The translations under genes were made by a program, and so were the position numbers. Positions 17,622-57,145 of a stretch of 57,145 nucleotides of DNA are shown here, in pieces. The DNA is from a virus, in the IMG/VR virus record IMGVR_UViG_3300023110_001858, positions 1 to 57,145 of that record; one strand, 5' to 3'. Every line of letters starts with the position of its first letter. Within the stretch, counting starts at the first letter, position 1. The notes below the pieces were generated by a model. It was not told the DNA's origin, did no database searches, and was given only the letters and a program-made list of their open reading frames with translations.

Positions 17622-19097
17622 ATGTCAATTGAAGAAGAAAAACCAAAGTTTCCAGATGATTTGAGTATAGATCCACAAGCCGCCGCTGAGCAAATACGTC
17701 CAGTTTTAGACAAGATTAGCCCTAGCATGTGTATGGCTAAGTGGCTATGGTCAAGTATTCATCTAACTAATGGTTTAACTAACAGTTGCTTTTTGCCACC
17801 TGTGCATAAAATTAAGCCAGGTGCAGTAAAAAATAATCCAAAAGCACTGCATAATACTCCAGAGAAAAAAGAACAGCGGGCTATGATGCTCAAAGGTGAA
17901 CAGCCTGATGGTTGTTCTTATTGCTGGAATATTGAAAAAATGGATAGACAATTTCTTAGTGATAGACACTACCGTAGTAGTGAACCCTGGGCGGCCGCAG
18001 GTTGGGAAGATGCACTGGAAGCAGGCGCAGACGGTGATGTTGAACCACGTTACTTGGAAATTAATTTTAATCATGCTTGTAACCTAGCATGTAGCTATTG
18101 TAGTCCACACTTGAGTTCAAAATGGGCAGAAGATATTGAACAAAATGGTCCGTATAATACTATTGTTCCTCATAATAGTATTGACTACTTTAAGCAAATC
18201 GGTCACTATCCTATTCCCAATCGTGAAACCAATCCATATGTAGATGCATTTTGGGAATGGTGGCCTGAGCTATATCCAAAACTAAAGAGCTTTAGAATGA
18301 CTGGTGGTGAACCACTAATGGATCGTAATACATTCCGTGTACTTGATTATATTATTGAAAACGGAAGAGAGGATTTGGAAGTTGCAGTTACTACAAATGC
18401 AAGTGTTCCTGAAAAACTGTGGAACAATTTTGTAGACAAAGTTAGTTTTATCAGCGAGTTTAACAAAGTTAAACGTTTTAGAATGTTTGTTAGTGTTGAT
18501 GGTTGGGGAGAACAAGCCGAGTACATGCGTGATGGTTTGGACTTTGATCGTATGTGGAACAATGTACATAACTATCTAACCAGAGTTGATGAAGGACTTG
18601 TTACTTTTATTGTTACGTTTAACATGTTAAGTTTGCCTAGCATTCAAAAACTTCTTGAAGGTATTATTGAATTACAAAAAACACACAATGTAAGTAAAAC
18701 TAGACGTGAAGCAGATGGTAGTTTAAAAGTATACGGTCATCATAAAGTTTTCTTAGACACACCTATGTTACGTTATCCACATTGGCAAAGTTTACAGTTG
18801 GTACCACAAGAGTACTGGCATTATGGAGATAGTGCACTTGAATATATGAAAGCAAACACTGACAAAGGAAGAGATAGTCGTTGGGTTGGATTTAAACCGC
18901 ATCAGATTGAAAGATTTGATCGCAGTTTAGAGTTCATGAAAAATGGATTTGATAATGAAGAACAACTTAATGAAGCACAGGAAAACTTTGTTAGGTTTTT
19001 TGGAGATTATGACCAAAGAAGAGGAAGAGATTTTAATAAATCTTTTCCTGAGTTTAGTAATTTGATGGATAATTGGAGCGAGAATTATAATGTATAA
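17622..19097 (+). CDS. Radical SAM enzyme with N-terminal twitch/SPASM-like domain
   Basis: The 491-residue enzyme has two recognisable parts. Residues 35-110 carry cysteines at C56, C98 and C101 (GCSYCWNIEKMD) in the place of the N-terminal twitch domain of the N_Twi radical SAM family. Then CNLACSYC (C153, C157, C160) ligates the SAM-cleaving [4Fe-4S] cluster, followed by RMTGGEPL, the SAM-contacting glycine-rich motif. Such enzymes generate a 5'-deoxyadenosyl radical to modify an otherwise unreactive substrate, and the extra Cys domain usually holds an auxiliary cluster. It overlaps the next gene by 8 bases. The two are close relatives: both have NPYV.AFW.WWP before the GGEP motif. The substrate is unknown. 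Confidence 0.85.
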   Translation: MSIEEEKPKFPDDLSIDPQAAAEQIRPVLDKISPSMCMAKWLWSSIHLTNGLTNSCFLPPVHKIKPGAVKNNPKALHNTPEKKEQRAMMLKGEQPDGCSYCWNIEKMDRQFLSDRHYRSSEPWAAAGWEDALEAGADGDVEPRYLEINFNHACNLACSYCSPHLSSKWAEDIEQNGPYNTIVPHNSIDYFKQIGHYPIPNRETNPYVDAFWEWWPELYPKLKSFRMTGGEPLMDRNTFRVLDYIIENGREDLEVAVTTNASVPEKLWNNFVDKVSFISEFNKVKRFRMFVSVDGWGEQAEYMRDGLDFDRMWNNVHNYLTRVDEGLVTFIVTFNMLSLPSIQKLLEGIIELQKTHNVSKTRREADGSLKVYGHHKVFLDTPMLRYPHWQSLQLVPQEYWHYGDSALEYMKANTDKGRDSRWVGFKPHQIERFDRSLEFMKNGFDNEEQLNEAQENFVRFFGDYDQRRGRDFNKSFPEFSNLMDNWSENYNV

Positions 19098-20757
19098 AGA
19101 CATAGACTATCATAATGAACGTGTTCGTATGCAAAAGATTTACGAAAACGATACTATGTGTACAGCTAAGTTTTTTACTAGCACATTATACTTGCAAAGT
19201 GGGCAAACACATAGTTGTTATCATCCTTTGCCACACCAAGTGGGACTAGATGAAATTGTAGATAATCCAAGTGCTATTCATAATAGTGCACACAAGAAAA
19301 AACAGCGTAAAAAAATGCTCTGTGGTGACAGGCCAGAAGAGTGTAATTACTGTTGGCGTGTAGAAGATATTGGTACAGATGTTCTCAGTGATCGCATTAT
19401 TAAAAGTAAAAATGAAATACTACTAACACCAAACGCACATGAAATTATTTTAGAAAATGGACACGAGCACAACTATGATCCAACATACTTGGAAATTAGC
19501 TTTGGTAACGAGTGTAATATGAAGTGTGCATACTGCCATCCTAAAGCAAGTAGTGCTTGGATGAAAGAAATGGACTTATTTGGTAAGTTCGAAAGTGCTC
19601 CACACTTACAGATACTTGAAGAAAAGATTTATCCAGAAGAAGAAAATCCATATGTTGAAGCCTTTTGGAAATGGTGGCCTGATTTACGCAAAAATTTGAA
19701 AGTGCTACGCTTAACTGGTGGTGAACCATTGCTGCAACAAAACACTTGGAAGTTTTTAGATATGCTAGAAGAAACAGACGATTGTAGCGATATGATTTTT
19801 CAGTTAAACACAAATCTAAATGTTAAAAATATTCTAGTGCAGCGTCTTGTTAAAAAAATGGACAGTATTCTTAAAAACAAAAAGATTAAAAAGTTTGCAT
19901 TGTTTAGCAGTGTTGAAAGTTGGGGAGAACGTGCACAATATGCTCGCAGTGGATTAGATTGTGACTTATTTGAAAAAAATGTAGAAACTATAATGCTAGG
20001 TTTAAATCATTACCCAAGTACTGAATTTTCTGGCATACAGATTATGAACACATTTAATATTATGTGTGTTACAAGCTATACAGCTTTTCTTAAAAAGATT
20101 TTAGAATGGAGAGAAAAGTTTACACTAGGACGTCATAAGCCATACTTGTCATTTGATATTCCACATTGTACTGAGCCCAATCACTGGACGCTTGTCGGAC
20201 TACCTGATGAATATGCTGTTTACTTTGAAGAAACTACCAAGTTTATATACAAGCACAGTTGGGTTAATAACTGGAACAAGTATCCAGCAGAAACACATGA
20301 TTTTTATTATGGTAAATACTTTTCTGAAGAAGAACAACGTGCCTGGGATCGTGTAATTAAAGTTTGGGAAAGTATTGTAGAGGGTCGTGCTAAAATTGAT
20401 TGTGATGATTACTTAGAGCCAAGACAAGTAGACGATGCTCGTCGTAATTGGTTTTTGTTTATCAAAGAAACAGATGCTAGACGTGGTACTAACTTTTTAG
20501 ATATATTTCCAGAAATGGAGCCGTACTATAAAATTTGTGCGGGATTGGAAGATATTGAAAACATGAGTTATAATCAAAGTTGCAAAGATGAAATGGTAAA
20601 ACTAAAAAACACTGTGGAAATTCACTGGGACGATGATTTTGTTTGGCACTATCCGGCACTTGCCAATAATATAGTTGAGTTAAGAAAAAGCAGCAACGCA
20701 CCTACTGAATTATATTATGAAGACAAGTTAACTGACAAATTTGGAATTGAAGAATAA
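19090..20757 (+). CDS. Radical SAM enzyme with N-terminal twitch/SPASM-like domain, tandem relative
   Basis: At 555 residues this is the longest of the twitch-type enzymes in the window. N-terminal cysteines are C24, C43, C85 and C88 (ECNYCWRVED). The radical SAM site is CNMKCAYC (C142, C146, C149), followed by RLTGGEPLL. The stretch before that motif, NPYVEAFWKWWPDL, nearly repeats that of the upstream enzyme, so the pair probably arose by tandem duplication. The C-terminal 100 residues extend past the family's usual length and hold a Glu/Lys-rich segment of unknown purpose. It probably acts on the same or a related substrate as its neighbour. Confidence 0.85.
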   Translation: MYKDIDYHNERVRMQKIYENDTMCTAKFFTSTLYLQSGQTHSCYHPLPHQVGLDEIVDNPSAIHNSAHKKKQRKKMLCGDRPEECNYCWRVEDIGTDVLSDRIIKSKNEILLTPNAHEIILENGHEHNYDPTYLEISFGNECNMKCAYCHPKASSAWMKEMDLFGKFESAPHLQILEEKIYPEEENPYVEAFWKWWPDLRKNLKVLRLTGGEPLLQQNTWKFLDMLEETDDCSDMIFQLNTNLNVKNILVQRLVKKMDSILKNKKIKKFALFSSVESWGERAQYARSGLDCDLFEKNVETIMLGLNHYPSTEFSGIQIMNTFNIMCVTSYTAFLKKILEWREKFTLGRHKPYLSFDIPHCTEPNHWTLVGLPDEYAVYFEETTKFIYKHSWVNNWNKYPAETHDFYYGKYFSEEEQRAWDRVIKVWESIVEGRAKIDCDDYLEPRQVDDARRNWFLFIKETDARRGTNFLDIFPEMEPYYKICAGLEDIENMSYNQSCKDEMVKLKNTVEIHWDDDFVWHYPALANNIVELRKSSNAPTELYYEDKLTDKFGIEE

Positions 20758-20760
20758 AAT

Positions 20761-22059
20761 ATGAGTACATTATGTATATACCCGTTCGTAAACTTGAATA
20801 GCAACACTGAAGGAAGTATCAAGTTGTGTTGCGCTATTCCCGATAACACTCACATCACAGATAAAGACGGTGTAGCTCTTAATTTTCAAGACGCTGCAAT
20901 TGAAGATATCTGGTATGGGGAATACATGACAGAAATACGTAAGAAAATGTTAGCAGGTGAACGTCCCAGAGCATGTAAAACGTGCTGGAAACTTGAAGAC
21001 ATGGGAATACAAAGTCCTAGACAAAGTGGGTGGCACGAATTTAAAGTCATCGACGATGAGTATGTTAAGACAGTTGAGTTTAGCGAAACTCCTGAACTTC
21101 CAACTAGTTTAGAATTAAGATTGGGTAATTTTTGTAATCTTAGATGTAACAGTTGTTGGAGTTTAAGTAGTGACCGCATTGCAGATGAAAGACGCCGCAT
21201 TACAGAAAAAGACCCTGACTTGCCACAGTGGTTAAGAGACAGCTGGAATTATGAATTAGACATGTCTGACAACAGCAATTGGTTATGGTGGGAAAGTGAA
21301 GAGTTTGAGCGCACAATTGATGAGGTTGCACCCAAGTTAAAGCGTTTGTATTTAACTGGAGGAGAACCAACACTAATACAAAAAAATATTGAAATTATGC
21401 AAAAAATCTTAGACTCTGGTAATAATAGATGTTATATTGCACTTACAACGAACTTAACTAAATTCAATGAAGTATTTTATAGTACGATGTCTAGATTTAT
21501 ACACGGCGAAGTACAGATAAGTATTGATGATGTATATGATAAGAATCATTATATAAGATACCCAACACAATGGGAACATATCGAAGAGAACTTACCAAAA
21601 CTATACTATACTCTTCCGGTTAACTGGAAAATTAAACACTACACAGTGTTCCAAACATTTAATTATAACAGCGTTCCTGAAATAATTAAGTGGATTAATT
21701 TACATAGATCTTATCATGAAAATGAAAAGCACCGTCATTATATTTGGAGCCCTATATTGTTGGATAATACATCATTCCTAGATGCACGTATTGTTCAAAA
21801 AGAGTACAGAGAAGAAGCTCTTGCAAGACTAGAGGACTTGTTACAAAATGAAGAAGAAAAACATGGCGCATGGTGGAAACACGGAGTAGTACAAGTAATC
21901 AAGTTTTTAGAAAACGACTTTTACGACAATGAAAATAGTGATAGATTGCGCAAACGTTTTAGAGAGTTTTGCGACACTTTAGATCGAAACCGTAAAAATT
22001 CATGCTGGTACGAAACCTTCGAAGAAGACTTGGCAAGTAAGGTATTAAATGATAGATAA
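20761..22059 (+). CDS. Radical SAM enzyme with N-terminal twitch/SPASM-like domain
   Basis: The 432-residue protein opens almost directly with the auxiliary domain: C5 (LCIYPFVNL), C23/C24 (IKLCCAIP) and C72/C75 (ACKTCWKLED). This layout, with a CC pair about 18 residues after the first Cys and a CxxC-W motif later, is the clearest example of the N-terminal twitch type. The radical SAM site is CNLRCNSC (C125, C129, C132), with YLTGGEPTL downstream. Three bases separate it from the preceding stop, and it overlaps the next radical SAM gene by 11 bases, which suggests coupled translation. Confidence 0.85.
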   Translation: MSTLCIYPFVNLNSNTEGSIKLCCAIPDNTHITDKDGVALNFQDAAIEDIWYGEYMTEIRKKMLAGERPRACKTCWKLEDMGIQSPRQSGWHEFKVIDDEYVKTVEFSETPELPTSLELRLGNFCNLRCNSCWSLSSDRIADERRRITEKDPDLPQWLRDSWNYELDMSDNSNWLWWESEEFERTIDEVAPKLKRLYLTGGEPTLIQKNIEIMQKILDSGNNRCYIALTTNLTKFNEVFYSTMSRFIHGEVQISIDDVYDKNHYIRYPTQWEHIEENLPKLYYTLPVNWKIKHYTVFQTFNYNSVPEIIKWINLHRSYHENEKHRHYIWSPILLDNTSFLDARIVQKEYREEALARLEDLLQNEEEKHGAWWKHGVVQVIKFLENDFYDNENSDRLRKRFREFCDTLDRNRKNSCWYETFEEDLASKVLNDR

Positions 22060-23314
22060 AAACTACATGCTCAAAGAGAGCAAAAACTTTTGTATGGCGC
22101 CGTGGGTGCATATGCACGTATGGCCAAATGGACGAGCCTTCCCTTGCTGTTTAAGTGATCCAGCATTAGATGATTACGGCAACACAAACATGAGTACAAT
22201 TAATGAATTGTGGAATAGTGAACTTGCTCGTAAACTTAGAAAAAACATGCTTGAAGACAAACCAACACAAACATGTCAAAGATGTTATGAGCTTGAAGCA
22301 GATGCAGATGCATATACACTAAGAAAAAACCTAAACAATAAGTTTGGTCATCATTTTGATAAAACTGCTGACACACTTGAAGATGGTACGCACAATGAGC
22401 CTAACTTTGGTTACATGGACTTTCGTTTTAGTAACTTATGTAACATGAAATGTCGTACATGTAGTCCTACTTTTAGCACAATGTGGTATGATGATTACAT
22501 TAAAAAGTTTGGACACGTGGCACCAGATGTTGCTAAGGCTAAATTTTTACAATTAAAAAATAAGCCCGGTTTTATGGACGAGCTTTGGCCATTGCTAGAC
22601 ACAGTTGAAGAAGTTTACTGGGCAGGTGGTGAACCACTTATTACAGACGTACACTGGGAAATTATGAATCACTGGGTAGAAACTGGACAAAGTGAAAATA
22701 TTACTATTAACTATACTACAAACTTTAGCCAACTAGAATACAAGCGTCAAAATATTATTGACTTGTGGAAAAAGTTTAAAACTGTTAACGTAGCAGCAAG
22801 TTTAGATGGTTGTTGGGATCGTGCTGAGTACATACGTGACGGAACTATATGGAACGATATTGTTAAGAACCGTGAACAGCTACTCAAAGAAGCACCTGAA
22901 GTAGACTTTTCTATTACTCCTACAGTTAGTATGATGAATGTATGGCACTTGCCAGATTTCCATATGGAATGGTTACATAAAGGACTAGTGTCGCCAGATG
23001 GGTTTAGGCTCAATAACTTACTTGATCCCAAATACTTCTGTATGCAAGTTTTGCCAAGTAGCTTTAAAGAAATAGTCACTGAAAAATGGGAAAACTATAT
23101 TGACGTTGTATCTAAACACCCAGACTTTCAAAATACAAAAGATCCAAATTGGTATGCAAGTGCACGTGGTACAGTAGAATTTTTAAACAAGCAAGACTTG
23201 TCTTACTTATTGCCTGAAACCCTGCGTGAATGGGAACTGTGGGACGGTGTTAGAAACCAAAAGTGGTATGAAGCATTGCCTGAACTTAAATTTTTAGAAG
23301 AATTCAAGGATTAA
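22049..23314 (+). CDS. Radical SAM enzyme with N-terminal twitch/SPASM-like domain
   Basis: This 421-residue enzyme has an N-terminal auxiliary domain with C15 (FCMAPWVHMHV), a GRAFPCC pair (C33/C34) and CQRCYELE (C76/C79). The catalytic cluster motif is CNMKCRTC (C131, C135, C138), and YWAGGEPLI follows. The FCMAPW and PCC patterns are those of a classical C-terminal SPASM domain but lie before the catalytic domain here, a permuted order. One base separates its stop from the cobalamin-type enzyme that follows. Reaction and substrate are unknown. Confidence 0.87.
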   Translation: MIDKNYMLKESKNFCMAPWVHMHVWPNGRAFPCCLSDPALDDYGNTNMSTINELWNSELARKLRKNMLEDKPTQTCQRCYELEADADAYTLRKNLNNKFGHHFDKTADTLEDGTHNEPNFGYMDFRFSNLCNMKCRTCSPTFSTMWYDDYIKKFGHVAPDVAKAKFLQLKNKPGFMDELWPLLDTVEEVYWAGGEPLITDVHWEIMNHWVETGQSENITINYTTNFSQLEYKRQNIIDLWKKFKTVNVAASLDGCWDRAEYIRDGTIWNDIVKNREQLLKEAPEVDFSITPTVSMMNVWHLPDFHMEWLHKGLVSPDGFRLNNLLDPKYFCMQVLPSSFKEIVTEKWENYIDVVSKHPDFQNTKDPNWYASARGTVEFLNKQDLSYLLPETLREWELWDGVRNQKWYEALPELKFLEEFKD

Positions 23315-23315
23315 T

Positions 23316-25460
23316 ATGAACGAAAATACTGGCACATATCAAGAAGACCGTAGTACGCAAACATTAACAGTTATGCAAAAGTATGCAAGTCGTCCGCAGC
23401 GAGGACTGGAACAAATAGATGTTTCATATGATACAAATAGACAAACAACATTATGTTTTGTTATGTGTCCTGAATGGAACCCCGAGTTTCCACCATACAA
23501 CTTAGCAAAACTTGCAGGTATTGCAAAAAGTGCAGGATATAGATGTAAAAGTTATGACCTAAATATTGAAAGTTACAATGCATACATGGAAGAAAAATGG
23601 CCACTGGATGTAAATCCCTGGCATGGTCCATACGATTGGAAATGGATCGGAGAAACATACTGGAACGAGCTACATGAATTTGTACAGCCTATTTTAGACC
23701 GTGCTATTGACGATATTATAAAGTTTGGTCCTGATGTAGTTGGATTCAGTTTATACTATTGTAACATTGAAAGTGTTCATTATATGATAGAACAACTTAA
23801 AGAGCGCAATAGTAGCATTAAGATTTTAATTGGTGGACCCAATACACACTACAGTTATTTTGTTCCTAGAGAAGATTACGATTATGTTATTAATGGTGAA
23901 GGAGAAAAGCCATTATTAAAACTACTAGATGAAATCGAAAGTAGTAAAGAAATTGAATATACTGAGCGTAAAGACAATACTCTAATTATTCGTCAACCGG
24001 AAGAAAGTAGACTGGATTTAAGTAACATGCCATTTCCAGACTATACAGACTTTCCAATGGACAAGTATCGTTTCCCAAATGGTGCATTGTGTGCTATTAG
24101 CCGTGGGTGTGTTGCTAAATGTACATTTTGTGAGGAAACACACTACTACAAATATAGACAACGTACTGCAGTAAGCACACTAGAAGAAGTCAAGTTTATG
24201 TACGATAACTATGGTACAAATGTTTTTTACTTTACTGATAGTTTAGTAAATGGCAATTTACGTGAATTACGTGCATTTGTTGAAGGTGTCAAAAGTGAAG
24301 GCATGGACATTAAGTGGAGTGGTTATGCACGTTGTGATGGTCGTATGGATCTAGAATACATGCAAGCATTATATGATGGCGGATGCGAAGTTTTAAGTTA
24401 TGGTATTGAAAGTGGAAGTCAAAAAGTACTTGATGACATGGACAAAAAAGTAACTATTGAAGAAATGGAAGCAAACTTTAGAGATGGACACAAAGTTGGT
24501 ATAAGTGCAAACACTAGTTGGATTTGCGGTTTTCCAACAGAGCGTCCAGTTGACTTTGAAGACACACTTACATTTATGTGGCGTGTAAGAAACTTGGGAC
24601 TAATGAGTGTTGGACAAGGGCCTGGCTTTAGTGTTGGTGTTGATAGTATTGTTGGCCAAAATTTGGAAAAATTTGAATTAAGCTGTAACTATTATTACGA
24701 CCACTGGATTAGAAAAGACTTTACTGCTAGTATTGTGCACAAGATGCAAAAGCAAAAAATGTTTAGTATCTTTACTGACTTGCTAACAGATTTGCATCCT
24801 GATTGTAGTTTGCCAACACGTTGGAATTTGCGTGAGCGTCATTACAATATTGAGTTTACAAACCCTGACTTTACACGTGATATAGATTACAACTATCATG
24901 ACTTTGATTATAATATTATTGACACTGGACTTGAAGGACATGTTGGTAATTTTGCTAACAGCATTGCAAATGATATTTGGCCGTTTTTACGAGTTGTATG
25001 GAGAGCACGTGGTGGTTACAAATTAAAATTATTATTTGAGCCAGAATGGGAAAAGCAAGAGTGGGGAGAACGTGGAGCAGCACCATTAACAGCATCTTAT
25101 TTGTTTGACATAGATGATGATGGTAATTGGAAAGCTGATTTTAAATGGGACTATCAACAAACACATCTTGACTATAAGTGGAAAGACGAGTATTATATAG
25201 AAGATGGTATAGAATGTTATGCTCCTGAAACTTGGGGACCGGTTTGGGGCCTGGTTAACTTTTATGGCAATAATAGTAATGGTGCTGTAAGAGCACGTAG
25301 ACTTGCTTGGAAAGGTGATCCAACTTATGATGGTAGAGATCCGTGGGAAAGTTTTGACATGGAGCAGTTTTTGGAACGCAAAGAGCAATTTAAAGAAGAC
25401 CGTATGGTGGATTTAAGTTACTGGTACGAATGGCAGGGCGAAGGAAAATGGAATGTCTGA
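23316..25460 (+). CDS. Radical SAM enzyme with N-terminal cobalamin-binding-like domain
   Basis: The protein is 714 residues long. Residues 45-200 look like the Rossmann-type cobalamin-binding domain of B12-dependent radical SAM enzymes: PPYNLAKLAGIAK, then DVVGFSLYYCN, then ILIGGPNTHY, then VINGEGE. Many such domains lack the DxHxxG base, and none is seen here. The cluster motif CVAKCTFC (C265, C269, C272) follows, with SYGIESGSQKVLDDM later as expected for the Elp3/MiaB-type barrel. About 230 residues follow the catalytic domain and are Trp-, Tyr- and Asp-rich with no recognised domain. B12-type family members often methylate or rearrange inactive carbons. It is the only one of this class in the window. 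Confidence 0.83.
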   Translation: MNENTGTYQEDRSTQTLTVMQKYASRPQRGLEQIDVSYDTNRQTTLCFVMCPEWNPEFPPYNLAKLAGIAKSAGYRCKSYDLNIESYNAYMEEKWPLDVNPWHGPYDWKWIGETYWNELHEFVQPILDRAIDDIIKFGPDVVGFSLYYCNIESVHYMIEQLKERNSSIKILIGGPNTHYSYFVPREDYDYVINGEGEKPLLKLLDEIESSKEIEYTERKDNTLIIRQPEESRLDLSNMPFPDYTDFPMDKYRFPNGALCAISRGCVAKCTFCEETHYYKYRQRTAVSTLEEVKFMYDNYGTNVFYFTDSLVNGNLRELRAFVEGVKSEGMDIKWSGYARCDGRMDLEYMQALYDGGCEVLSYGIESGSQKVLDDMDKKVTIEEMEANFRDGHKVGISANTSWICGFPTERPVDFEDTLTFMWRVRNLGLMSVGQGPGFSVGVDSIVGQNLEKFELSCNYYYDHWIRKDFTASIVHKMQKQKMFSIFTDLLTDLHPDCSLPTRWNLRERHYNIEFTNPDFTRDIDYNYHDFDYNIIDTGLEGHVGNFANSIANDIWPFLRVVWRARGGYKLKLLFEPEWEKQEWGERGAAPLTASYLFDIDDDGNWKADFKWDYQQTHLDYKWKDEYYIEDGIECYAPETWGPVWGLVNFYGNNSNGAVRARRLAWKGDPTYDGRDPWESFDMEQFLERKEQFKEDRMVDLSYWYEWQGEGKWNV

Positions 25461-26448
25461 ACTAGTAAAAATTATACAAGGCGGTGATCCATTTGTAAAC
25501 ATTACTTGGCAAGTAAGTAATTTATGTAACTTTAGATGTTCTTATTGTAATGAATGGAACTGGAACGGTAGCAACAAAAATTTAGATGCTGGTAAAGTAA
25601 AAGCAGGCTTGGACAAAATTATTGATTATGAATTGAGCAGAGGCTATACTAGACTAAAAGTATTTTTTAGTGGCGGTGAACCAGGGTATTGGAAGCCGCT
25701 TATACCTATTATAGAGCACATAAAAAATTCAGGAATGACAGAAGTTAAATTTGCAATTAATACCAACTTGAGTAACAAGCTCAGTTGGTGGGAAGAGCAT
25801 GTTGAATTATTTGACGATGTTGTTGCTAGTTATCATCCAGAATATGTAGACACTGATCACTATTTAAAAATATACAAGTTTTTAAGTGAACGTGTCAACT
25901 ATCTTTGTGGACGTATGATGATGCACGAGCCATGTTGGGATGAAGTTATTGAGTTTAGTAAACGTCTTAAAAGTGAATGTAACAATGAAGATTTAAACTG
26001 GCGCATTGAGTATGTTCCTATATTCGAAGAACTAAGTAACACAACCAGGCCATACAATTATAAAGATCCTGCACACAAAAAATTCTTAGAAGAAACAAAT
26101 TTAGAAGAAAGTATTAAACGTTATATACCTGCTAAAGCTAATGGCATGGGAAGTTTAGAAGTGTATGACGATGGAGAACAACGACCAATCAATTGCAATA
26201 GAATAGTAGCAGAAAACAGAAACTTTTTTAAAGGATGGAAATGTTTAATTCCAACAGAAAGTGTTTTTATTAATTGTGAAGGTAATATTGAAATGGGAAG
26301 TTGTGGAGTAATGCCAGCAGTTGGAAATCTATATGATCCCAACTTAGAACTTGACTTGCCAGAAAGTATAATATGTCCAAAGAGCCATTGTCACTGTGGT
26401 ACTGACATTTATATAACCAAATTTAAAAAAGGACATGAACATGCATAA
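25453..26448 (+). CDS. Radical SAM enzyme with C-terminal auxiliary cysteine cluster
   Basis: The 331-residue enzyme has its cluster motif near the N-terminus, CNFRCSYC (C25, C29, C32), followed by FFSGGEP. At least six cysteines cluster in the last 80 residues (GWKCLIP, INCEG, GSCGVMP, CPKSHCHCG), as in enzymes with a C-terminal SPASM or related auxiliary cluster. Its domain order is thus the usual one, unlike that of its neighbours. It overlaps both adjacent genes by 8 and about 8 bases. The partial gene at the right edge of the window begins with a very similar motif (CNYNCSYC) and may be a relative. Confidence 0.82.
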   Translation: MSELVKIIQGGDPFVNITWQVSNLCNFRCSYCNEWNWNGSNKNLDAGKVKAGLDKIIDYELSRGYTRLKVFFSGGEPGYWKPLIPIIEHIKNSGMTEVKFAINTNLSNKLSWWEEHVELFDDVVASYHPEYVDTDHYLKIYKFLSERVNYLCGRMMMHEPCWDEVIEFSKRLKSECNNEDLNWRIEYVPIFEELSNTTRPYNYKDPAHKKFLEETNLEESIKRYIPAKANGMGSLEVYDDGEQRPINCNRIVAENRNFFKGWKCLIPTESVFINCEGNIEMGSCGVMPAVGNLYDPNLELDLPESIICPKSHCHCGTDIYITKFKKGHEHA

Positions 26449-43868: not shown

Positions 43869-43879
43869 TTCTTTTTCCC

Positions 43880-43930: not shown

Positions 43931-43932
43931 AT

Positions 43933-45444: not shown

Positions 45445-45530
45445 GTCCATATACAAAATATAAGAAGCGTAAAGCAGTTAAAAAGCGTATAGAAGAATTA
45501 AAAAAACAAGACCCGTTTATATATGAATGA
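45414..45530 (+). CDS. Small basic protein between carbamoyltransferase and TctA
   Basis: This 38-residue frame starts at ATG 45414 inside the carbamoyltransferase and ends at TGA 45528-45530, eight bases into the TctA gene. It fills the only gap between the two (45445-45522). The product has an amphipathic or short hydrophobic start (VWRWIISPY), then a Lys/Arg/Glu helix (KAVKKRIEELKK) and ends DPFIYE. The charge pattern and the two short overlaps, the normal style in this genome, support a real gene. It is too short to be TctB, which has four membrane segments. Function is unknown. Confidence 0.55.
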   Translation: MFTRVWRWIISPYTKYKKRKAVKKRIEELKKQDPFIYE

Positions 45531-49234: not shown

Positions 49235-50261
49235 AAAGTTAGAAGTAGAAGAAAATATTTTACCACTGGAAATACACGAGCTACTAGACAGATATGAACT
49301 TTTATATCCAGATGTTACTGAATTATCTGATTTACGCCGTATAATAGTTGACCACGATCTTAGCAGCATTTTTAGAATTGCTGATGAAAATGACGAGTTA
49401 CGCAAAGCAGTTATCGAAGAAAATTTACATAGCATTTTTAGAGTATTGGAAAGTAAGAGTTGTTTTGAAGTTGATGACTTGTACAACTATATGGAAGACG
49501 TGCGCAAAGCAGTTGTTAATAAAAATTTACGCAGTCTTTTTAAATTACTTAATGCTGACGATTTAAGGAAAATTTGTTTAGATAAAAATTACTGGAAACT
49601 TTGGCCTTTACTAGAACAGTATACTGATACAAGATTTACTGCAGCATTCAAAAACTTTTATGTAAACAACACAGTAATTGATGCTGATTGCTTTAGCAGA
49701 GGTCAGTTAAAAAGTAAACTTTGGATAATTGAAGAATTAGAAAAACTAAACATGCCATTGGGTATGACGTACCTGTGTGCAGGGTGGTATGCTACACTTG
49801 CTACTATGTTATTTGAAAGTAACATTGTCGTAGATAAAGTTAGATCTTTTGACATTGATCCCAGTGTTGTAGATATTGCAAAAACATTTAACAAGCCTTG
49901 GGTAATGGATAGTTGGAAGTTTCAAGCAGCTACATTAGATATACATGATATTGACTTTTTATCACATACTTACAATGTAAAACGAGCAGATGGATCTCTG
50001 TGTTCACAAACCACTGTTCCAGATACAATTATCAATACAAGTTGTGAACACATAGAGCACTTTGAAGATTGGTACGAAAAAATACCCCAAGGCAAACTAC
50101 TAATTTTACAAAGTAATAATTTTCGAGAAATTAAAGAACATGTAAATTGTGTTGACAATTTGTTTGAATTTAAACGTATAGCACATATGAGTATTTTGTT
50201 ATATGAAGGTGAACTTGACCTGGGAAAATACAAAAGGTTTATGTTAATTGGACGTAAGTAA
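49215..50261 (+). CDS. SAM-dependent methyltransferase-like protein with N-terminal short repeats
   Basis: This is a 348-residue protein; ATG 49215 and ATG 49218 are adjacent candidates. The C-terminal part (from about residue 180) looks like a methyltransferase: MTYLCAGWYATLATML as motif I without the usual Gly-rich signature, VRSFDIDPSVVDIA as motif II, and DTIINTSCEHIEHFEDW as motif IV. Before it, residues 40-133 hold four copies of a 17-20 residue unit of the form LR(K/R)a(V/I)...NL.S(I/L)F.LL. The repeats may form a small helical scaffold. Together they suggest binding to a protein or RNA partner, but that is inference. Confidence 0.65.
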   Translation: MMSNLAEKLEVEENILPLEIHELLDRYELLYPDVTELSDLRRIIVDHDLSSIFRIADENDELRKAVIEENLHSIFRVLESKSCFEVDDLYNYMEDVRKAVVNKNLRSLFKLLNADDLRKICLDKNYWKLWPLLEQYTDTRFTAAFKNFYVNNTVIDADCFSRGQLKSKLWIIEELEKLNMPLGMTYLCAGWYATLATMLFESNIVVDKVRSFDIDPSVVDIAKTFNKPWVMDSWKFQAATLDIHDIDFLSHTYNVKRADGSLCSQTTVPDTIINTSCEHIEHFEDWYEKIPQGKLLILQSNNFREIKEHVNCVDNLFEFKRIAHMSILLYEGELDLGKYKRFMLIGRK

Positions 50262-50475
50262 ACTATCAGTTAGAGAACTTCAGCTTGAAGCCGTACGAGC
50301 AATAAGCACAATGGAAGCAACTAACAATAACATTTACAAGTTTAATAAACAAGCGCATCACGACAGTCATGCATGGTATCGTGCTGTAATTGAATGGTAT
50401 ATTGACGAATATGGAGACTTGCCTAGTAAGTACGGACCTGGAAAGGACGTAAAACTATTAATGGATGATCAATGA
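50248..50475 (+). CDS. Small phage protein of unknown function
   Basis: This 75-residue frame starts at TTG 50248, 14 bases before the end of the methyltransferase, and ends four bases into the next gene, so it fills the gap exactly. The sequence is helical and His/Tyr-rich (AISTMEATNNNIYKFNK, AWYRAVIEWYIDEYG), with no motif I recognise. No signal or membrane segment is seen. It is a possible small partner or precursor peptide for the downstream radical SAM enzymes, but nothing in the sequence shows a leader/core arrangement. Confidence 0.5.
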   Translation: MDVSKLSVRELQLEAVRAISTMEATNNNIYKFNKQAHHDSHAWYRAVIEWYIDEYGDLPSKYGPGKDVKLLMDDQ

Positions 50476-51320
50476 ATTTTTCTCTTGACTTTGGAGAAAG
50501 TGACACATATACACTAGAGCTTTGTGCTAGAGATACCAGTGTTGGACGCCGCTGGTATCAATTGTTGTCTGAACATGTAGAACGTGACAACCGCTGCAGT
50601 GAACCACAGCGTTTATATAACTTTCCAAAAGATCCCTGGGACGAAGAAGCACTTGTGCAGGAACTCAATCGCTGCATTAGTATAGTTAATGATTATCAAA
50701 AAGTAATCAATCATAATGCAAGCGTGGGCATGAGTCAAGAAACATTTAATGAATTGCATCATTATTTTGAAGTGCTTCGTGGTGAAGTCATTGAGGGCAC
50801 CGAATTTTTTAATAAAGCCCCACGTGTTGTACAAGACGCATTAAATGATTACAATGTTTGTATTCATCGCACTGAATCATTTTACATGGGCAAACGTTGG
50901 CAGCGACGAGCACCAAGAATCGTGTGTACATTAAATAACATTGAAAGGCAATTGTTAGAAACTGAAGACTATGAAAACTTTGTAACCGACTTGCCAGCAG
51001 GTACAGCATTTGTAAATTATTGTCAAGTAGGTAAGCCAATATTGGATGTATTCAGAGATGGTGATGAAATAATATTTGATGATACTGTGCGTCCATTAAA
51101 ATACCTGGGTCCTGATTTTAGTTTTTATTTGGCAAATACACAAGAAGAAACTAATGGACTAGCTGAATGGATGTCAGCTAACGGATACGACATTAATGAC
51201 AAAACCAATGCTATCGGAGTATTGCCTGTCGCAGATGTCATTTGGAAAGACGATCCTGAAACAACAATATTAGAAATATCTAAAAGACAGTATATAAAAT
51301 GTATAACTATAAAAACATAA
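50472..51320 (+). CDS. Phage protein of unknown function beside radical SAM genes
   Basis: I do not recognise this 282-residue acidic protein. It opens with short strands (FSLDFGESDTYTLELCARD). A central helical part follows (SIVNDYQKVINHN, FNELHHYFEVLRGEV), and it ends in strand-like segments (FVNYCQVGKPILDVFRDGDEIIFDD). The overall order resembles the unknown protein at 32957, though identity is too low to assert kinship. Its last bases overlap the start of the radical SAM enzyme at 51299, so it is likely made together with that enzyme. Confidence 0.5.
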   Translation: MNFSLDFGESDTYTLELCARDTSVGRRWYQLLSEHVERDNRCSEPQRLYNFPKDPWDEEALVQELNRCISIVNDYQKVINHNASVGMSQETFNELHHYFEVLRGEVIEGTEFFNKAPRVVQDALNDYNVCIHRTESFYMGKRWQRRAPRIVCTLNNIERQLLETEDYENFVTDLPAGTAFVNYCQVGKPILDVFRDGDEIIFDDTVRPLKYLGPDFSFYLANTQEETNGLAEWMSANGYDINDKTNAIGVLPVADVIWKDDPETTILEISKRQYIKCITIKT

Positions 51321-52381
51321 AAATGGTACATTTGGAAGTCACACAGCGTTGCCAAGCAGCGTGTCCTATGTGCGACCGTAATGAGAATGGTGGGCCAGAT
51401 AATCGTCACATTAATAACACAGAATTAACTTTAGATGACTGTAAAAAGATATTCAGCATTGACTTCATAAAGCAATTGTCTACAATGTATATGTGTGGCA
51501 ACTTGGGTGATCCTATTGTTGCACACGACACATTGGAGATATTCAAATACTTTAGGGAACATAACCCTACAATGTGGTTGAGCATGAATACAAACGCAGG
51601 AGCAAGAGATGAAACGTGGTGGACTGAATTGGCTAGAACTTTTGGTCGTAACGGCGCTGTTATTTTCAGTGTTGATGGGCTTATGGATACTAACCACCTT
51701 TATCGTCAGAATGTTAAATGGGACAATGTGGTTCATAGTATGAAATCATTTATCGCAGCGGGCGGCAGGGCTCGTTGGGACTATATTATATTTGGACACA
51801 ACGAACATCAAGTTGACGAAGCTGAAGCACTTGCTAAAGAGTGGGGCTGTGAAAAATTTATACGCAAAAAGAGCGGCCGCTTCTTTACAGCAAGTAATCG
51901 AGGTAAAGATACACACCAAGCACAAAATCGCAAAGGGCAAGAAACGCAGTTACTTGAAAAGCCTAAAGCACTTGACAATCAAAACTTAGCACTACTAAAA
52001 CAAAAAGAAATAGAAAAAACATACGGAAGTATGTTAGAGTATTATAACAAGTGTGATATCATTTGTAAAGCTGTAGATAAAAAAGAAATCTTTATTACAG
52101 CAGAAGGATTGCTAATGCCTTGCTGTTGGACTGCTGGACGTATGTACAAATGGTGGCACAAAGATCCACGTGTAGAACAAATATGGGATCATATAGATGC
52201 AGCTGGTGGCAAAGATGCTATTGACTGTCGTATTAACACAATAGAACAAGTCATGGATGGACCATTACTTGATAGTATTGAAATGAGTTGGCATAAAAAC
52301 ACTGTTGAATCTGGAAAGCTAGGTGTTTGTGCACAAAAATGTGGAAGTGAGTTTGATCCGTTTGGAGCACAATTTGTCTAG
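51299..52381 (+). CDS. Radical SAM enzyme with C-terminal SPASM domain
   Basis: The 360-residue enzyme has CQAACPMC (C18, C22, C25) close to the N-terminus. MYMCGNLGDPI is in the GGEP position, an alternative form of that SAM-binding motif. The C-terminal third has cysteines typical of a SPASM domain: CDIICKAVDKKEIFI, LLMPCCWTAGR and VCAQKCG. Domain order is conventional, unlike the twitch-type enzymes in the window. The next gene is a paralogue with the same CGN.GDPI segment. SPASM enzymes often modify peptides, but sugars and nucleotides are also known targets. Confidence 0.85.
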   Translation: MYNYKNIKMVHLEVTQRCQAACPMCDRNENGGPDNRHINNTELTLDDCKKIFSIDFIKQLSTMYMCGNLGDPIVAHDTLEIFKYFREHNPTMWLSMNTNAGARDETWWTELARTFGRNGAVIFSVDGLMDTNHLYRQNVKWDNVVHSMKSFIAAGGRARWDYIIFGHNEHQVDEAEALAKEWGCEKFIRKKSGRFFTASNRGKDTHQAQNRKGQETQLLEKPKALDNQNLALLKQKEIEKTYGSMLEYYNKCDIICKAVDKKEIFITAEGLLMPCCWTAGRMYKWWHKDPRVEQIWDHIDAAGGKDAIDCRINTIEQVMDGPLLDSIEMSWHKNTVESGKLGVCAQKCGSEFDPFGAQFV

Positions 52382-53150
52382 TTTTAAAAATAAAAAAATT
52401 AGACACTTGCACCTAGGACTCACACATAAATGTGTGTTACAGTGTAGTGAATGTGCTAGAACATATCAAACAGGGCCTACTCGAGATCTACTTGATTGGA
52501 CCAAATACAAACAAGTTATTGATCGAAGCACTGACATTCTTTTATGTGGCAATTGGGGAGACCCCATTTACTATAGTAAATTATTTGAATTGTGCTCTTA
52601 TATAAAAAAGAAATCCTGGTGGCAAAAGCAAGGTCCTCGATCAATACTCATGCACACTAACGGTACAGGACAAACTCCTGAATGGTGGAGTAAATTTGGT
52701 AGTATACTTGATGAACGTGATAATATCATTTTTAGTATAGACGGAACGTTGTCTAGCAGTGCTAATTATCGCATTAATTCAAATCGTATAAGTATAGTAA
52801 ATGGAATTATTCATTTACGGTCGGTGTGTTCAGCACAATTAGTTTGGAAACATCTTGTATTTGCATATAACATAGATACTGTTGGAACAGTAATTGATCA
52901 GGCACGTGCATTAAAATTTGATCGTGTAGAGTTTGTACATGCATTTACAGACAATAAGCCAGAAAATTATATAGCATGGAATGTTGAAGATGTAAAGTCT
53001 CACATTTATCAACATTTTAAATATCTTGAAGATATACATCATACAACTGTTGATAAATTATTGCCAATTAAATCCAGAGAGGACGAGTGGGACAAATGGA
53101 TAAAAGTAGATCTAAGATACTGGCCAAATGCATCGCCGGAAACCATTTAG
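52374..53150 (+). CDS. Radical SAM enzyme, catalytic part of a gene split from its SPASM domain
   Basis: The likely start is TTG 52374, six bases after GGAG and overlapping the previous stop; a frame with GTG 52323 is longer but lies inside the previous gene. The 258 residues include CVLQCSEC, the cluster motif, and LLCGNWGDPI, and match the paralogue at 51299 along most of its catalytic domain. The match ends near DEWDKWIK. The expected SPASM cysteines are not in this frame but in the adjacent one, starting around 53096. Sequence error, true frameshift or two separate chains are all possible. Confidence 0.72.
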   Translation: MSSFKNKKIRHLHLGLTHKCVLQCSECARTYQTGPTRDLLDWTKYKQVIDRSTDILLCGNWGDPIYYSKLFELCSYIKKKSWWQKQGPRSILMHTNGTGQTPEWWSKFGSILDERDNIIFSIDGTLSSSANYRINSNRISIVNGIIHLRSVCSAQLVWKHLVFAYNIDTVGTVIDQARALKFDRVEFVHAFTDNKPENYIAWNVEDVKSHIYQHFKYLEDIHHTTVDKLLPIKSREDEWDKWIKVDLRYWPNASPETI

Positions 53151-53374
53151 TGCAACCTTTTATTGAGTTAGATGGTACTTTTTTGCCTTGCTGTTGGTTA
53201 TCAACTGATGTAGAACGTGTACAAGCACTAAAAGATCTTTATGGCAGCGATTATAAAAATTTAAATGTAAAAGAAAATGACGTTGATAGCATTATTGAAT
53301 TATGGGATCGCATTTCAGATACTTGGGAGCATGACCCTTTTAAAACATGCCAAGTAATGTGTGGGAAAGAATAA
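53096..53374 (+). CDS. SPASM-domain fragment continuing the radical SAM gene at 52374
   Basis: This 92-residue frame from ATG 53096 (GTG 53087 is also in frame) lies -1 relative to the upstream gene and overlaps it by 55 bases. It carries KCIAGNH, FLPCCWLST and CQVMCGKE, corresponding in order to the SPASM cysteines of the paralogue at 51299 (CDIICKAV, LMPCCWTA, CAQKCG). AGAGGA (53077-53082) is a possible but rather distant ribosome binding site. The PP-loop gene begins right after its stop. Either it is the real C-terminus of the radical SAM enzyme after a frameshift, or a separately made cluster-binding protein. Confidence 0.65.
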   Translation: MDKSRSKILAKCIAGNHLVQPFIELDGTFLPCCWLSTDVERVQALKDLYGSDYKNLNVKENDVDSIIELWDRISDTWEHDPFKTCQVMCGKE

Positions 53375-54193
53375 ATGTTTAATAAAACAGAACTTCATAC
53401 TAGATATGATACACCATATGGTGCAGCATACTTTAATCGTGTTGCAAAGCACAATATGGTTAGACTTAGTGGTGGTTTTGATAGTGCAGTTATGTTATAC
53501 TTACTAGCAAAAACACTAAGTGAGTACAGAGATGATGCTGTTATTGAACCATTTACAGTACAACGTAGTAATCCAGTACAAATACCAGAATACGAGCGTG
53601 TATACATTGTTCCTTATGCAAAGCGTATTATTGATTATGTGCGTGAGCGTTTTCCTACTGTTGCTATTAATGATACACTGATAGAAGATGCAAACTACTG
53701 GTGGGTGCATGAGTTTGTAGACGGACGTAACATTAGTAGTTATGGAGGTGCACAAGAAAACGTGAGTGGCTTTTTACGTTGGAGACATCGTGAAAGAATA
53801 GCTGAAGTTACTGATCCTGAGTCGAGATATTATATTGAGTATAATGGTGTGACACGCAACCCTCCATTACAATGTGTAGAGCAAAGTGACGAAGCACATA
53901 GAGACTTATTAGACAATCGTGTGTTATTTGAATCTAGTGCAACAGTGTGTCATGATAGTCTGACTGATTGGATGTATCAATACCAGCCTTGGAGAAATGC
54001 AGACAAGCGTATTGTTTTTTGGTTAGCTGAACAGCATGGCATACTTGATGATATGCTAGTATTAGCTAGAAGCTGTGAAGGTGACCAATGGAATACAGAA
54101 AACTTTACAAAAGCATGTGGTGAATGTTGGTGGTGCTTGGAACGTGACTGGGCACATGACAACTTTAAAAATACAGAGATAGTACATGGATAA
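53375..54193 (+). CDS. QueC-like PP-loop ATPase with C-terminal zinc site
   Basis: The 272-residue protein has VRLSGGFDSAVML, the PP-loop motif SGGFDS (residues 32-37) of N-type ATP pyrophosphatases. The last 40 residues give C234 and CGECWWC (C248, C251, C254), the same order and spacing style as the zinc site of QueC, which makes 7-cyano-7-deazaguanine. Overall length is near QueC's 220-240, with an insertion. PP-loop enzymes adenylate a substrate carbonyl or oxygen to form amides, nitriles or thio groups. No QueD, QueE or FolE partner is seen, so deazaguanine synthesis is not established. It starts one base after the SPASM fragment and overlaps the next radical SAM gene by eight bases. Confidence 0.77.
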   Translation: MFNKTELHTRYDTPYGAAYFNRVAKHNMVRLSGGFDSAVMLYLLAKTLSEYRDDAVIEPFTVQRSNPVQIPEYERVYIVPYAKRIIDYVRERFPTVAINDTLIEDANYWWVHEFVDGRNISSYGGAQENVSGFLRWRHRERIAEVTDPESRYYIEYNGVTRNPPLQCVEQSDEAHRDLLDNRVLFESSATVCHDSLTDWMYQYQPWRNADKRIVFWLAEQHGILDDMLVLARSCEGDQWNTENFTKACGECWWCLERDWAHDNFKNTEIVHG

Positions 54194-55580
54194 ATCAACA
54201 TTTTGTATCTTACCTTGGGTACATTTAAGTACACGACCAGACGGAAGTATGCGAGTATGCTGCACTGCTAATGCCAGTAGTGTTGGCCCTACTAACGATA
54301 AAAGTTTATACGGTGGCATGGTTGGTGTACTTAAAGATGATGAAGGACGACCAAACAACTTAAATGTTACAGATTTCCAAAGTAGTTGGAACAGCAAGTA
54401 TATGAAGAATGTACGCAAGCAAATGATGAACGGAGAAGTACCACCAAGTTGTATAAAATGTTTTAAAGAAGAAAGTGCAGGGCACCGAAGTAAACGTCAA
54501 TGGGAAACTGCATACTGGAGCGAACGTGTTGATGTTGACCGCTTACTGGAAAATACCACTGAAGATGGAGAAGTACCGCCAGAGTTAACTTACATTGATT
54601 TACGTTTTGGCACCAAATGTCAACTTGCTTGTGTAATGTGTAGCCCACATGATAGTTCAGGTTGGATTAAAGATCACAGTAAAATTTTACCACAAGTACA
54701 AAATGAAACATTACGTGATACCATGCAGTGGGTAGATAAGGGCAGTACAAACGGAAGTAGTTATAACTGGCACAAAAATAATCCTGTGTTTTGGGATCAG
54801 TTTTATGAACAAATACCAAACATGAAGCAAATTTATTTTGCAGGTGGTGAAAGTTTAATTATTGAGGAACATTATGAAATACTTGAAGAATGCATACGCC
54901 AAGGCCATGCAAAGAATCTCGAACTACGTTATAACTCAAATGGAGTTGAATGGAGAGAGGATTTATTCGATCTATGGCGAGAATTCAAACTTGTGCGTTT
55001 TCACTATTCGGTAGATAGCATACATGATATGAACGATTACATACGCTATCCCAGTGAATGGAAGCGTACAGAAGAAGTGTTTCATATACTTGACAAAGAC
55101 ACTAGTAATAATGTAGAAGTTACAGTTGCTTGTGCAGTTCAAGCACTTAATGTATATTACTTGCCAGACTTTATTAAATGGAAACTAGAACAAAATTTCC
55201 ATAAAGTAAACATGTGGCCATTTGGTGCAGGTGGTGTAAATTATCATTTTGTCTATCATCCTGCACACTTAAATGTAAAAGTACTGCCTGCTTGGTTTAA
55301 AGCAGAGTGTAGACGCAAATACGAGGAGTTTTATCCCTGGTGGGAAGCCAATTGGGAAAAGTCAATACCTGCTTGGCACAAAGGTAAAGTAGATTACGAT
55401 ACTTGGCGCAATGCTGATTACGGCATAAAGCGTTTAGAAGGTATGCTGAGCTTTATGGAAAGCGAAGACTGGAGCAATCGTTTGCCTGAGCTACAAGAGT
55501 TTTTAACATTGTGTGATGCACAGCGTGGAAATAGTTTTGCAAAGACGTTTCCAGAAATGAAAGGTATATTTGATGGATAA
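54186..55580 (+). CDS. Radical SAM enzyme with N-terminal twitch/SPASM-like domain
   Basis: The 464-residue enzyme has the N-terminal auxiliary pattern C7 (FCILPWVHL), C25/C26 (MRVCCTA) and C89/C92 (CIKCFKEE). The catalytic motif CQLACVMC (C145, C149, C152) follows, and then FAGGESLI, where the usual GGEP is GGES. A Ser for Pro change in this SAM-contacting loop is uncommon but tolerated in some members. It overlaps the PP-loop gene by eight bases and the next twitch-type enzyme by eight, so the three are one coupled unit. Confidence 0.85.
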   Translation: MDKSTFCILPWVHLSTRPDGSMRVCCTANASSVGPTNDKSLYGGMVGVLKDDEGRPNNLNVTDFQSSWNSKYMKNVRKQMMNGEVPPSCIKCFKEESAGHRSKRQWETAYWSERVDVDRLLENTTEDGEVPPELTYIDLRFGTKCQLACVMCSPHDSSGWIKDHSKILPQVQNETLRDTMQWVDKGSTNGSSYNWHKNNPVFWDQFYEQIPNMKQIYFAGGESLIIEEHYEILEECIRQGHAKNLELRYNSNGVEWREDLFDLWREFKLVRFHYSVDSIHDMNDYIRYPSEWKRTEEVFHILDKDTSNNVEVTVACAVQALNVYYLPDFIKWKLEQNFHKVNMWPFGAGGVNYHFVYHPAHLNVKVLPAWFKAECRRKYEEFYPWWEANWEKSIPAWHKGKVDYDTWRNADYGIKRLEGMLSFMESEDWSNRLPELQEFLTLCDAQRGNSFAKTFPEMKGIFDG

Positions 55581-56952
55581 TCCTAAACACAGCGATTGCA
55601 GTACATTTTGTCCATTGCCATGGAATAGTATAAACATTCGTAACAATGGCGATATTAGAATATGTTGTAACGCTAACAGTTATACAGAAAACCGTGGCAT
55701 TGTTAGACACGATGATGGAACCCCATATAATGCCAGCAAAGATAATTTGCAAGACAGTCGTAACAGTGAACTAAGTCGTGATGTACGTGCTACTATGTTG
55801 CGTGGAGAATGGCATCCGGAATGTGAACGTTGTAGACAAGAAGAGTTAAATGGTGTTTTGAGTCGCAGACAAATGGAGTATAACGACTGGGACTTAACGC
55901 CAGAAACGGCTGTTGAACTTACACAAGAAGACGGAACAATTAACACTGACGACTTTGCACTTGAGTTTTTTGATATACGTTATGGTAACTTCTGTAATTT
56001 AAAATGCCGTATGTGCGGACCAACTGATAGTCATAGTTGGTTTGACGATTTTGTTAAACTTAATGATCGTACACATTATAAAGACACACATGAAAAAATA
56101 CAATTGACTAAAAATGAAAAGGGACGTTGGGTTACAGATCAGTATGATTGGTTTAAAGGATCAAATATGTACTGGACTAACTTCGAGGACTATACTAAAG
56201 ATGCTAAAAAACTTTATATTGTTGGTGGTGAGCCACTTATTATTGAAGAGCATGTTGACAGTTTAGAAAGGTTAATACACAACGGCAGTGCAGCAGACAT
56301 GCAAATTGAGTACAATACAAATTTAACAAATGTAACACCTCGCATGTTAGAACTTTGGAAACATTTTAAAGAGATAAGAATCGGTGCTAGTATTGATGCA
56401 TGTAATGAAATATTTGACTATCAACGTGCACCTGCTAAATGGGAACATGTGTATGAAAACTTAAAAAAGATTGAAGCAAATGACGACATTAATTTTAAAT
56501 GTTGGTTTGCATTTACTATTACACCACTAAACGTTTTTCATTTTCCTGAATTTATGCGATGGAAAGTAGAAGAAAGCGGACTTACTAAATTTAATCCTGT
56601 ACACAGTTGGCGACCACTAGCAAGTTTTCATATGTGTCACAGTCCCAAGTATTATAATATTAAAGTGTTACCAGACGATATTAAAGCAGAAGTAAGTCGT
56701 CAGTATAGTGAATGGCGAACTTGGATGATAGAAAGTGATAATATTGATAATATCAAAAAACATTTTGTTAAACATCTTGACAGTGTAGAAAAATTTATGT
56801 TAAGTGAAAGCTATAGCGACCAAGATTGTTGGAGCGGGAGAACATGGCTAGAAGAGTTTGTTTGGATTACACGAGAGTTAGACCAAATACGTGGACAAAA
56901 TATACTAGACATTGTTCCAGAATACAAGAGTTTGTTTGATGAGAATAACTAA
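55573..56952 (+). CDS. Radical SAM enzyme with N-terminal twitch/SPASM-like domain
   Basis: ATG 55573 is chosen over TTG 55570; the product is 459 residues. Auxiliary cysteines are C13 (FCPLPWNSI), C31/C32 (IRICCNA) and C84/C87 (CERCRQEEL). The catalytic motif is CNLKCRMC (C141, C145, C148), followed by YIVGGEPLI. The arrangement, the N-terminal DDGTPYN/DDEGRPNN segment and the late LDQIRGQN/CDAQRGNS segment link it with its upstream neighbour as a tandem pair. It overlaps the partial radical SAM gene by 14 bases. Confidence 0.85.
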   Translation: MDNPKHSDCSTFCPLPWNSINIRNNGDIRICCNANSYTENRGIVRHDDGTPYNASKDNLQDSRNSELSRDVRATMLRGEWHPECERCRQEELNGVLSRRQMEYNDWDLTPETAVELTQEDGTINTDDFALEFFDIRYGNFCNLKCRMCGPTDSHSWFDDFVKLNDRTHYKDTHEKIQLTKNEKGRWVTDQYDWFKGSNMYWTNFEDYTKDAKKLYIVGGEPLIIEEHVDSLERLIHNGSAADMQIEYNTNLTNVTPRMLELWKHFKEIRIGASIDACNEIFDYQRAPAKWEHVYENLKKIEANDDINFKCWFAFTITPLNVFHFPEFMRWKVEESGLTKFNPVHSWRPLASFHMCHSPKYYNIKVLPDDIKAEVSRQYSEWRTWMIESDNIDNIKKHFVKHLDSVEKFMLSESYSDQDCWSGRTWLEEFVWITRELDQIRGQNILDIVPEYKSLFDENN

Positions 56953-57145
56953 TGAAAATCTGGACTGTGCAATTGTTACACTTTTTATTCACAATGTGTG
57001 TAACTACAATTGCAGCTATTGCAGTGACTTTCATAGAGACGGTAGTAATCGTTGGCCTGAAGATTGGCAGCCTTACTTGGACTTTTTAGAACGTGTAAAG
57101 CAAACCAACAAGTACTTGTACGTAGAAGTACTGGGAGGAGAGCCT
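56939..57145 (+). CDS. Radical SAM enzyme, 3' partial at the window edge
   Basis: The frame from ATG 56939 runs open to the right edge (69 codons). It contains CNYNCSYC, the cluster motif, 20 residues from the start, then VEVLGGEP at the very end of the window. The short N-terminus before the motif and the GSNRW segment after it resemble the enzyme at 25453 (CNFRCSYC, GSNKN). This suggests the same subclass with a C-terminal auxiliary domain that lies outside the window. Confidence 0.82.
   Translation, partial: MRITNENLDCAIVTLFIHNVCNYNCSYCSDFHRDGSNRWPEDWQPYLDFLERVKQTNKYLYVEVLGGEP

Follow-up and report, generated by a model that had tools for sequence, protein, structure and literature searches.

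An aquatic phage tail locus with twelve radical SAM genes in two cassettes, each paired with a GT-A fold family

Genomes of aquatic phages that hold many radical S-adenosylmethionine (rSAM) genes have been described. The T4-like ocean phage TARA_ERS488813_N000010, published in 2017 (PMC5332604), carries 12 of them, there in a whole genome of 183 kb, and the host recognition clusters of pelagimyophages are presented, in the excerpted text of PMC7029224, as large variable islands of tail fibres, glycosyltransferases, sugar genes and rSAM cassettes. The family NF033640 (N_Twi_rSAM) is named by domain architecture, not by reaction, yet it recurs in the tail loci of many aquatic phages and is expanded in some Bdellovibrionota. 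Here we analysed IMG/VR virus record IMGVR_UViG_3300023110_001858, a linear fragment whose entire 57,145 bp are called the window; its genes are referred to by their start positions (Table 1). The window also contains twelve rSAM genes, and they lie in two conserved cassettes, each with a gene of one family with a glycosyltransferase A (GT-A) fold.

Gene order was examined in scans with three seeds, namely the rSAM proteins (150 loci, in which all open reading frames (ORFs) were clustered), the GT-A family and the tail protein t8; the last two were added to avoid the circularity of the rSAM-seeded set. All three repeated the order of cassette 1, which runs from the tail genes t8-t5-t4-t3 through two GT8-like genes, a "slot" protein and the GT-A gene to an array of N_Twi genes. 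This order was found in phages up to 457-kb jumbo size, and the four tail genes stood directly before the array in nearly all loci reaching that far. Either 16637 or its paralogue 48512 was present in 135-136 of the 150 rSAM-seeded loci, a count that overstates independence because many of the loci are near-duplicates or related. N_Twi never occurred without a GT-A gene in the t8-seeded set; of the 15 loci there that extend two or more genes beyond GT-A, 13 had N_Twi by manual count. When viral loci were seeded with GT-A itself, 44 of 80 had N_Twi, and many of the others ran into the contig end or broke off behind GT-A; one group within L259-L273 had three GT-A copies and the methyltransferase-like gene MT6 in place of N_Twi. 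In 11 contigs that measure 135-457 kb, the nearest N_Twi gene lay 84-3808 bp from GT-A (combined p ~1e-4, which is no true significance because these contigs are related). GT-A and N_Twi also occur together in bacteria: the Bdellovibrionota contigs L177, L178, L190, L193 and L201 hold GT-A, mostly MT6, a 51299-like rSAM gene and N_Twi without the tail block.

Protein 16637 gave no match in Pfam, PHROG or NCBIfam. Structure matches of its confident AlphaFold model showed a GT-A fold over residues 2-175, and the two aspartates of a DxD motif, D65 and D67, were invariant in 57 sequences. Nucleotidyltransferases of the IspD/MobA type share the fold, but the DxD speaks for a glycosyltransferase. 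The label of the two GT8-like genes comes from motif reading only, as neither had a Pfam or PHROG match; the slot protein had no informative family match, and t5 gave weak tail-fibre and virion PHROG matches.

A six-frame scan found CxxxCxxC in exactly twelve long plus-strand ORFs, seven at 17622-27655 and five from 51299 to the edge; the only further matches in the window were two minus-strand frames of 64-65 aa. The Pfam Radical_SAM profile matched 11 of the 12 (below gathering score for 19090, 22049 and the truncated last gene), and the twelfth, 52323, matched a PHROG radical SAM family and has a CGNWGDP motif besides CxxxCxxC. Seven proteins (17622, 19090, 20761, 22049, 26435, 54186 and 55573) matched NF033640 near full-length at 255-415 bits, far above the curated cut-off of 170 bits. 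A preliminary description, made from the letters and the ORF translations, had placed twelve rSAM genes here, with an auxiliary cysteine domain before the core in seven and a cobalamin-binding-like N-terminus in one. The profiles bear it out on each count: all twelve have rSAM profile support (the last also through its orthologue), the seven are those of NF033640, and 23316 has a B12-binding domain. Superfamily features were found at the levels of motif, CxxxCxxC and GGE(P), and of fold, the latter in the model of 54186. In a 44-sequence alignment of diverse N_Twi relatives, cysteines 7, 26, 89 and 92 of the N-terminal part and 145, 149 and 152 of the core were invariant, and SPASM (PF13186) matches lay ahead of the rSAM core in several N_Twi proteins. 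The C-terminal twitch domain of the aminocyclitol dehydrogenase BtrN aligned to the N-terminus of the NF033640 profile (positions 8-83, E 8.6e-5), which supports the reading of a permuted domain. By direct reading, 51299 has its SPASM-like cysteines (C...CC...CxxxC) at the usual C-terminal place.

We tentatively read the region, with slightly less than even confidence, as the tail locus, and thereby the host-recognition locus, of an aquatic phage with a contractile tail, in which two conserved cassettes serve glycan assembly and tailoring, the tailoring being done by radical chemistry. Glycan tailoring is favoured because sugar and glycan genes surround the cassettes, the glycosyltransferase partner is fixed and bacterial copies occur without tail genes. 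The GT-A and GT8-like enzymes would build or attach sugars. SAM would then be cleaved at the core cluster of the N_Twi enzymes, while their auxiliary cluster would relay electrons or provide the substrate site; these enzymes may act on the sugar or glycan by, for example, alcohol oxidation of the BtrN type or epimerisation; methyl, carbamoyl and C-methyl transferases of the same island could then finish the product. The decorated glycan would be displayed either by the tail fibres of the phage or by the surface of the host, the tail fibre being the slightly more likely target for cassette 1 because that cassette adjoins tail genes. Distinct N_Twi paralogues may introduce distinct modifications, which would explain the varying content of the arrays.

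Several points weigh against this reading. The rSAM core of the 54186 model ties at Z ~11-12 between enzymes of sugars (DesII, BlsE), peptides (SkfB, CteB, anSME) and nucleotides (viperin), so the structure picks no substrate. Most of the characterised SPASM/twitch enzymes that are known act on peptides. Some large bacterial N_Twi arrays (L336-L338) have no GT-A gene nearby, and because of near-duplicates and kinship among loci both the GT-A/N_Twi counts and the combined p of ~1e-4 suggest more independence than there is. The presence of SkfB, CteB and anSME among the best fold matches fits the main rival explanation, in which the targets of the N_Twi enzymes are amino-acid side chains in the adjacent tail proteins, modified in the manner of anSME or of ribosomally synthesized and post-translationally modified peptides before the glycosyltransferases add sugar to the modified residue. 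The place of t8-t5-t4-t3 directly before the array speaks for it, and so does the resemblance of the GT-A model to, among others, the peptide S-glycosyltransferase SunS. However, the Bdellovibrionota contigs combine GT-A with N_Twi in loci that lack the tail block, and no shared precursor-like repeat was seen; we consider this explanation fairly unlikely. The t4 protein has AYGYGYGYGY and GYGYGYGY tracts, which were rejected as a common rSAM substrate because they are present in only 12 loci, all from the closest relatives.

In contig L177 the GT-A and N_Twi genes lie among many GT2 genes, a context that would suit cassettes that alter the host envelope glycan during infection and so block superinfection, the tail locus being merely where such cargo collects. 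This function was proposed for the glycosyltransferases of the pelagimyophage clusters in the excerpted text of PMC7029224. A shared insertion site, however, would not require the gene order with the tail block to stay fixed across such different phages, and we judge this account, which differs from the glycan-tailoring reading in its target only, to be quite unlikely. Some Rhodobacterales have the GT-A gene alone, and no N_Twi was found near the related copies; a 39% GT-A relative on a Rhodobacter plasmid (L326, NZ_CP023549.1 705837-718763) has genes for type VI secretion, a caspase-family protein and a peptidase in its neighbourhood. The GT-A protein had no match among isolate phages. The N_Twi relatives found among isolate phages (~23-25% identity) were all from Vibrio phages, K566 and KVP40 among them; K566 (L327, OZ196521.1 161548-165950) has three annotated rSAM genes near each other, another at 177860 and, between them, a PagP-like gene.

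Cassette 2 runs in the order second GT-A, MT6, rSAM/SPASM, PP-loop gene and N_Twi pair. The two cassettes abut in L040, L045, L058, L062 and L072, and in the window ~20 kb of sugar and surface genes separate them, which is why the preliminary description saw two clusters. It did not list an ORF at 53096-53374 (ATG at 53096), which overlaps the end of 52323 and has the cysteine pattern found at the C-terminus of 51299, the paralogue of 52323. The same split of core and SPASM occurs in 13 loci including the window, among them L009, the L030 group, L345, L019, L047, L252, L051 and the bacterial L337, and it is therefore no sequencing error of the window contig. A broader proposal, which we regard as speculative and rather unlikely, is that one modular system is common to aquatic phages and some Bdellovibrionota: GT-A would be paired with an interchangeable N_Twi array, some auxiliary domains would act in trans (the separate SPASM-like subunit), and combinatorial radical modifications would be written on a surface or tail-fibre glycan. 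The PP-loop gene 53375, with its QueC-like match to phrog_1550, together with weak QueE-like matches, would be expected if the locus made a 7-deazaguanine type DNA modification, the PP-loop gene being QueC and one rSAM being QueE. Yet 53375 falls far below every curated cut-off, and the Pfam scans of the window gave no FolE, QueD or transglycosylase match. With the FolE/QueD/QueE/QueC set represented by a weak QueC-like match, this pathway is unsupported and, we believe, highly improbable.

As the preliminary description had held, both rSAM clusters belong to one genome. Contig G004 has both in the same order and contig G029, 99.9% identical, independently confirms 1-37 kb of the window, which makes a chimera unlikely, and we rejected a chimeric assembly. 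The assignment to a phage is likewise supported. The density of rSAM genes had been called extraordinary, and this view was not upheld. NF033640 matches numbered 2-19 (median 11) in 49 related viral contigs and 11 in the window; 25 of the 49 had at least as many and 12 were denser, a comparison that speaks for this group only, as the contigs were chosen for holding a relative. Exceptional density was rejected, also in view of the T4-like ocean phage; a set of this size is normal for aquatic phages of this group. Several bacterial genomes reached through loci titled Bdellovibrionota had 25-33 NF033640 matches, and in a Bdellovibrionota draw a match over the cut-off was found in 22 of 78 genomes. 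A Bdellovibrionia metagenome-assembled genome (G058:C1:745000-775000; L336, L337) has ~14 N_Twi genes in 30 kb.

The tandem pairs 17622/19090 and 54186/55573 had been taken as local expansion, a claim that holds for ancient duplication and fails for a recent one. Identity within each pair is ~31%, against 58-93% between each copy and its orthologues in other phage contigs. The duplications are old; recent local duplication was rejected. In a FastTree tree of 202 representatives both pairs sat in larger clades, one clade per pair (33 rows with support 87; 16 rows with support 98), and other phages stood between the copies. The tree warns of long branches, so that deeper relations are unsure.

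Table 1. Features of the window (57,145 bp). Bits are scores to family models; pLDDT, predicted local distance difference test.
Feature	Coordinates	Strand	Evidence
Giant virion structural protein, two ORFs (2-3985, 4151-10765)	2..10765	+	phrog_10938 9e-72 and 1e-144; jumbo-phage relatives
Tail block: t8 10743-11387, t5 11399-12316, t4 12318-13520, t3 13580-13927	10743..13927	+	order common to three differently seeded scans
Two GT8-like glycosyltransferase candidates (13921-14832, 14820-15707)	13921..15707	+	paralogues, 25%; conserved position before GT-A
Slot protein between GT8-like pair and GT-A	15655..16659	+	position conserved; three sequence types s9/s23/s25
GT-A fold protein, probable glycosyltransferase, heads cassette 1	16637..17620	+	pLDDT 90.3; D65/D67 invariant; N_Twi companion in 136/150 loci
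N_Twi rSAM	17622..19097	+	NF033640 342 bits
N_Twi rSAM	19090..20757	+	NF033640 255 bits; 31% to 17622
N_Twi rSAM	20761..22059	+	NF033640 287 bits
N_Twi rSAM	22049..23314	+	NF033640 366 bits; SPASM PF13186 at residues 15-80
B12-binding rSAM	23316..25460	+	PF02310 3.7e-12; PF04055 1.6e-14
rSAM without N-terminal twitch	25453..26448	+	PF04055 3.4e-8
N_Twi rSAM	26435..27655	+	NF033640 303 bits
Sugar/surface gene block between cassettes	27652..48511	+	Pfam
Second GT-A copy, heads cassette 2	48512..49234	+	34% to 16637; 292 bits to family model
MT6, SAM-methyltransferase-like by motif reading	49215..50261	+	69/150 loci, adjoins second GT-A; no family match
c13, conserved	50472..51320	+	31 loci
rSAM, C-terminal SPASM-like Cys pattern	51299..52381	+	PF04055 5.1e-7; 44% relatives beside 54186 relative in Bdellovibrionota contigs
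rSAM core without auxiliary domain	52323..53150	+	phrog_21308 5.5e-16; 26% to 51299
Separate 92-aa SPASM-like protein	53096..53374	+	C...CC...CxxxC; same split in L009, L030 group, L345, others
PP-loop (QueC/NAD synthase-like) ATPase	53375..54193	+	phrog_1550 2.7e-6; PF06508 0.006; family in 38 loci
N_Twi rSAM	54186..55580	+	NF033640 415 bits; AlphaFold pLDDT 89.3; ~60% relatives in Bdellovibrionota contigs
N_Twi rSAM	55573..56952	+	NF033640 357 bits
rSAM truncated by contig end	56939..57145	+	98.6% over 69 aa to 306-aa L015 orthologue (PF04055 1.2e-8)

The giant structural protein is broken at 3985-4151, where G029 (L342) has a single continuous frame; the break is probably an assembly or sequencing indel. 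Pfam matches in the sugar/surface block include NAD epimerase, TylF methyltransferase, UDPG dehydrogenase, cupin sugar isomerase, DegT, C-methyltransferase, ribulose-P epimerase, SIS, carbamoyltransferase and TctA, among others. The DegT aminotransferase (34211-34825, 204 aa) and the UDP-glucose dehydrogenase (32169-32960, 263 aa) are short; since DegT forms of ~200 aa also occur in the phage loci L091, L092 and L097, the short DegT form is conserved. At 45523-47999 a membrane protein of the TctA tripartite tricarboxylate transporter (PF01970, 2.5e-92) is followed by a protein read as TctC-like, a pair that would give a phage a system for substrate uptake; L038 has a 57% homologue of the TctC-like protein ahead of GT-A. 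The same block holds two paralogous proteins (37674-39008 and 39836-41053, 23%) with no family match.

The window resembles the described systems in part. Like a host recognition cluster it is a variable island beside baseplate and tail genes, with the tail block, glycosyltransferase genes and, in G029, a gp25 baseplate gene upstream of the giant structural gene. The pelagimyophage cluster is placed between VrlC and gp14; the window contig ends before gp14, and no VrlC was identified in it by name, and the excerpted text of PMC7029224 does not describe conserved GT-A/N_Twi cassettes. BtrN (PDB 4m7t, 4m7s) has its twitch after the rSAM core, whereas the N_Twi proteins of the window have it before the core. 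The GT-A enzymes SunS, WrtF, SpsA and B4GALNT1 share the fold and the DxD with 16637 at ~7-14% identity. The fixed GT-A partner, the fixed place behind tail genes and the bacterial relatives open these many rSAM genes, so far without an assigned use, to experiment: it can now be asked on what glycan or tail protein the modification sits, and whether it determines host range or keeps competitors out. The separate SPASM-like subunit is a further peculiarity that can be tested. In the open-licence literature, to which our search was limited, we did not find the GT-A companion, the tail-block order, the two-cassette architecture or the separate SPASM-like subunit described. The NF033640 family and the abundance of rSAM genes in such phages were known already; the conserved arrangement in two cassettes, their GT-A partner and the split-off SPASM-like subunit are, as far as that search reached, new.

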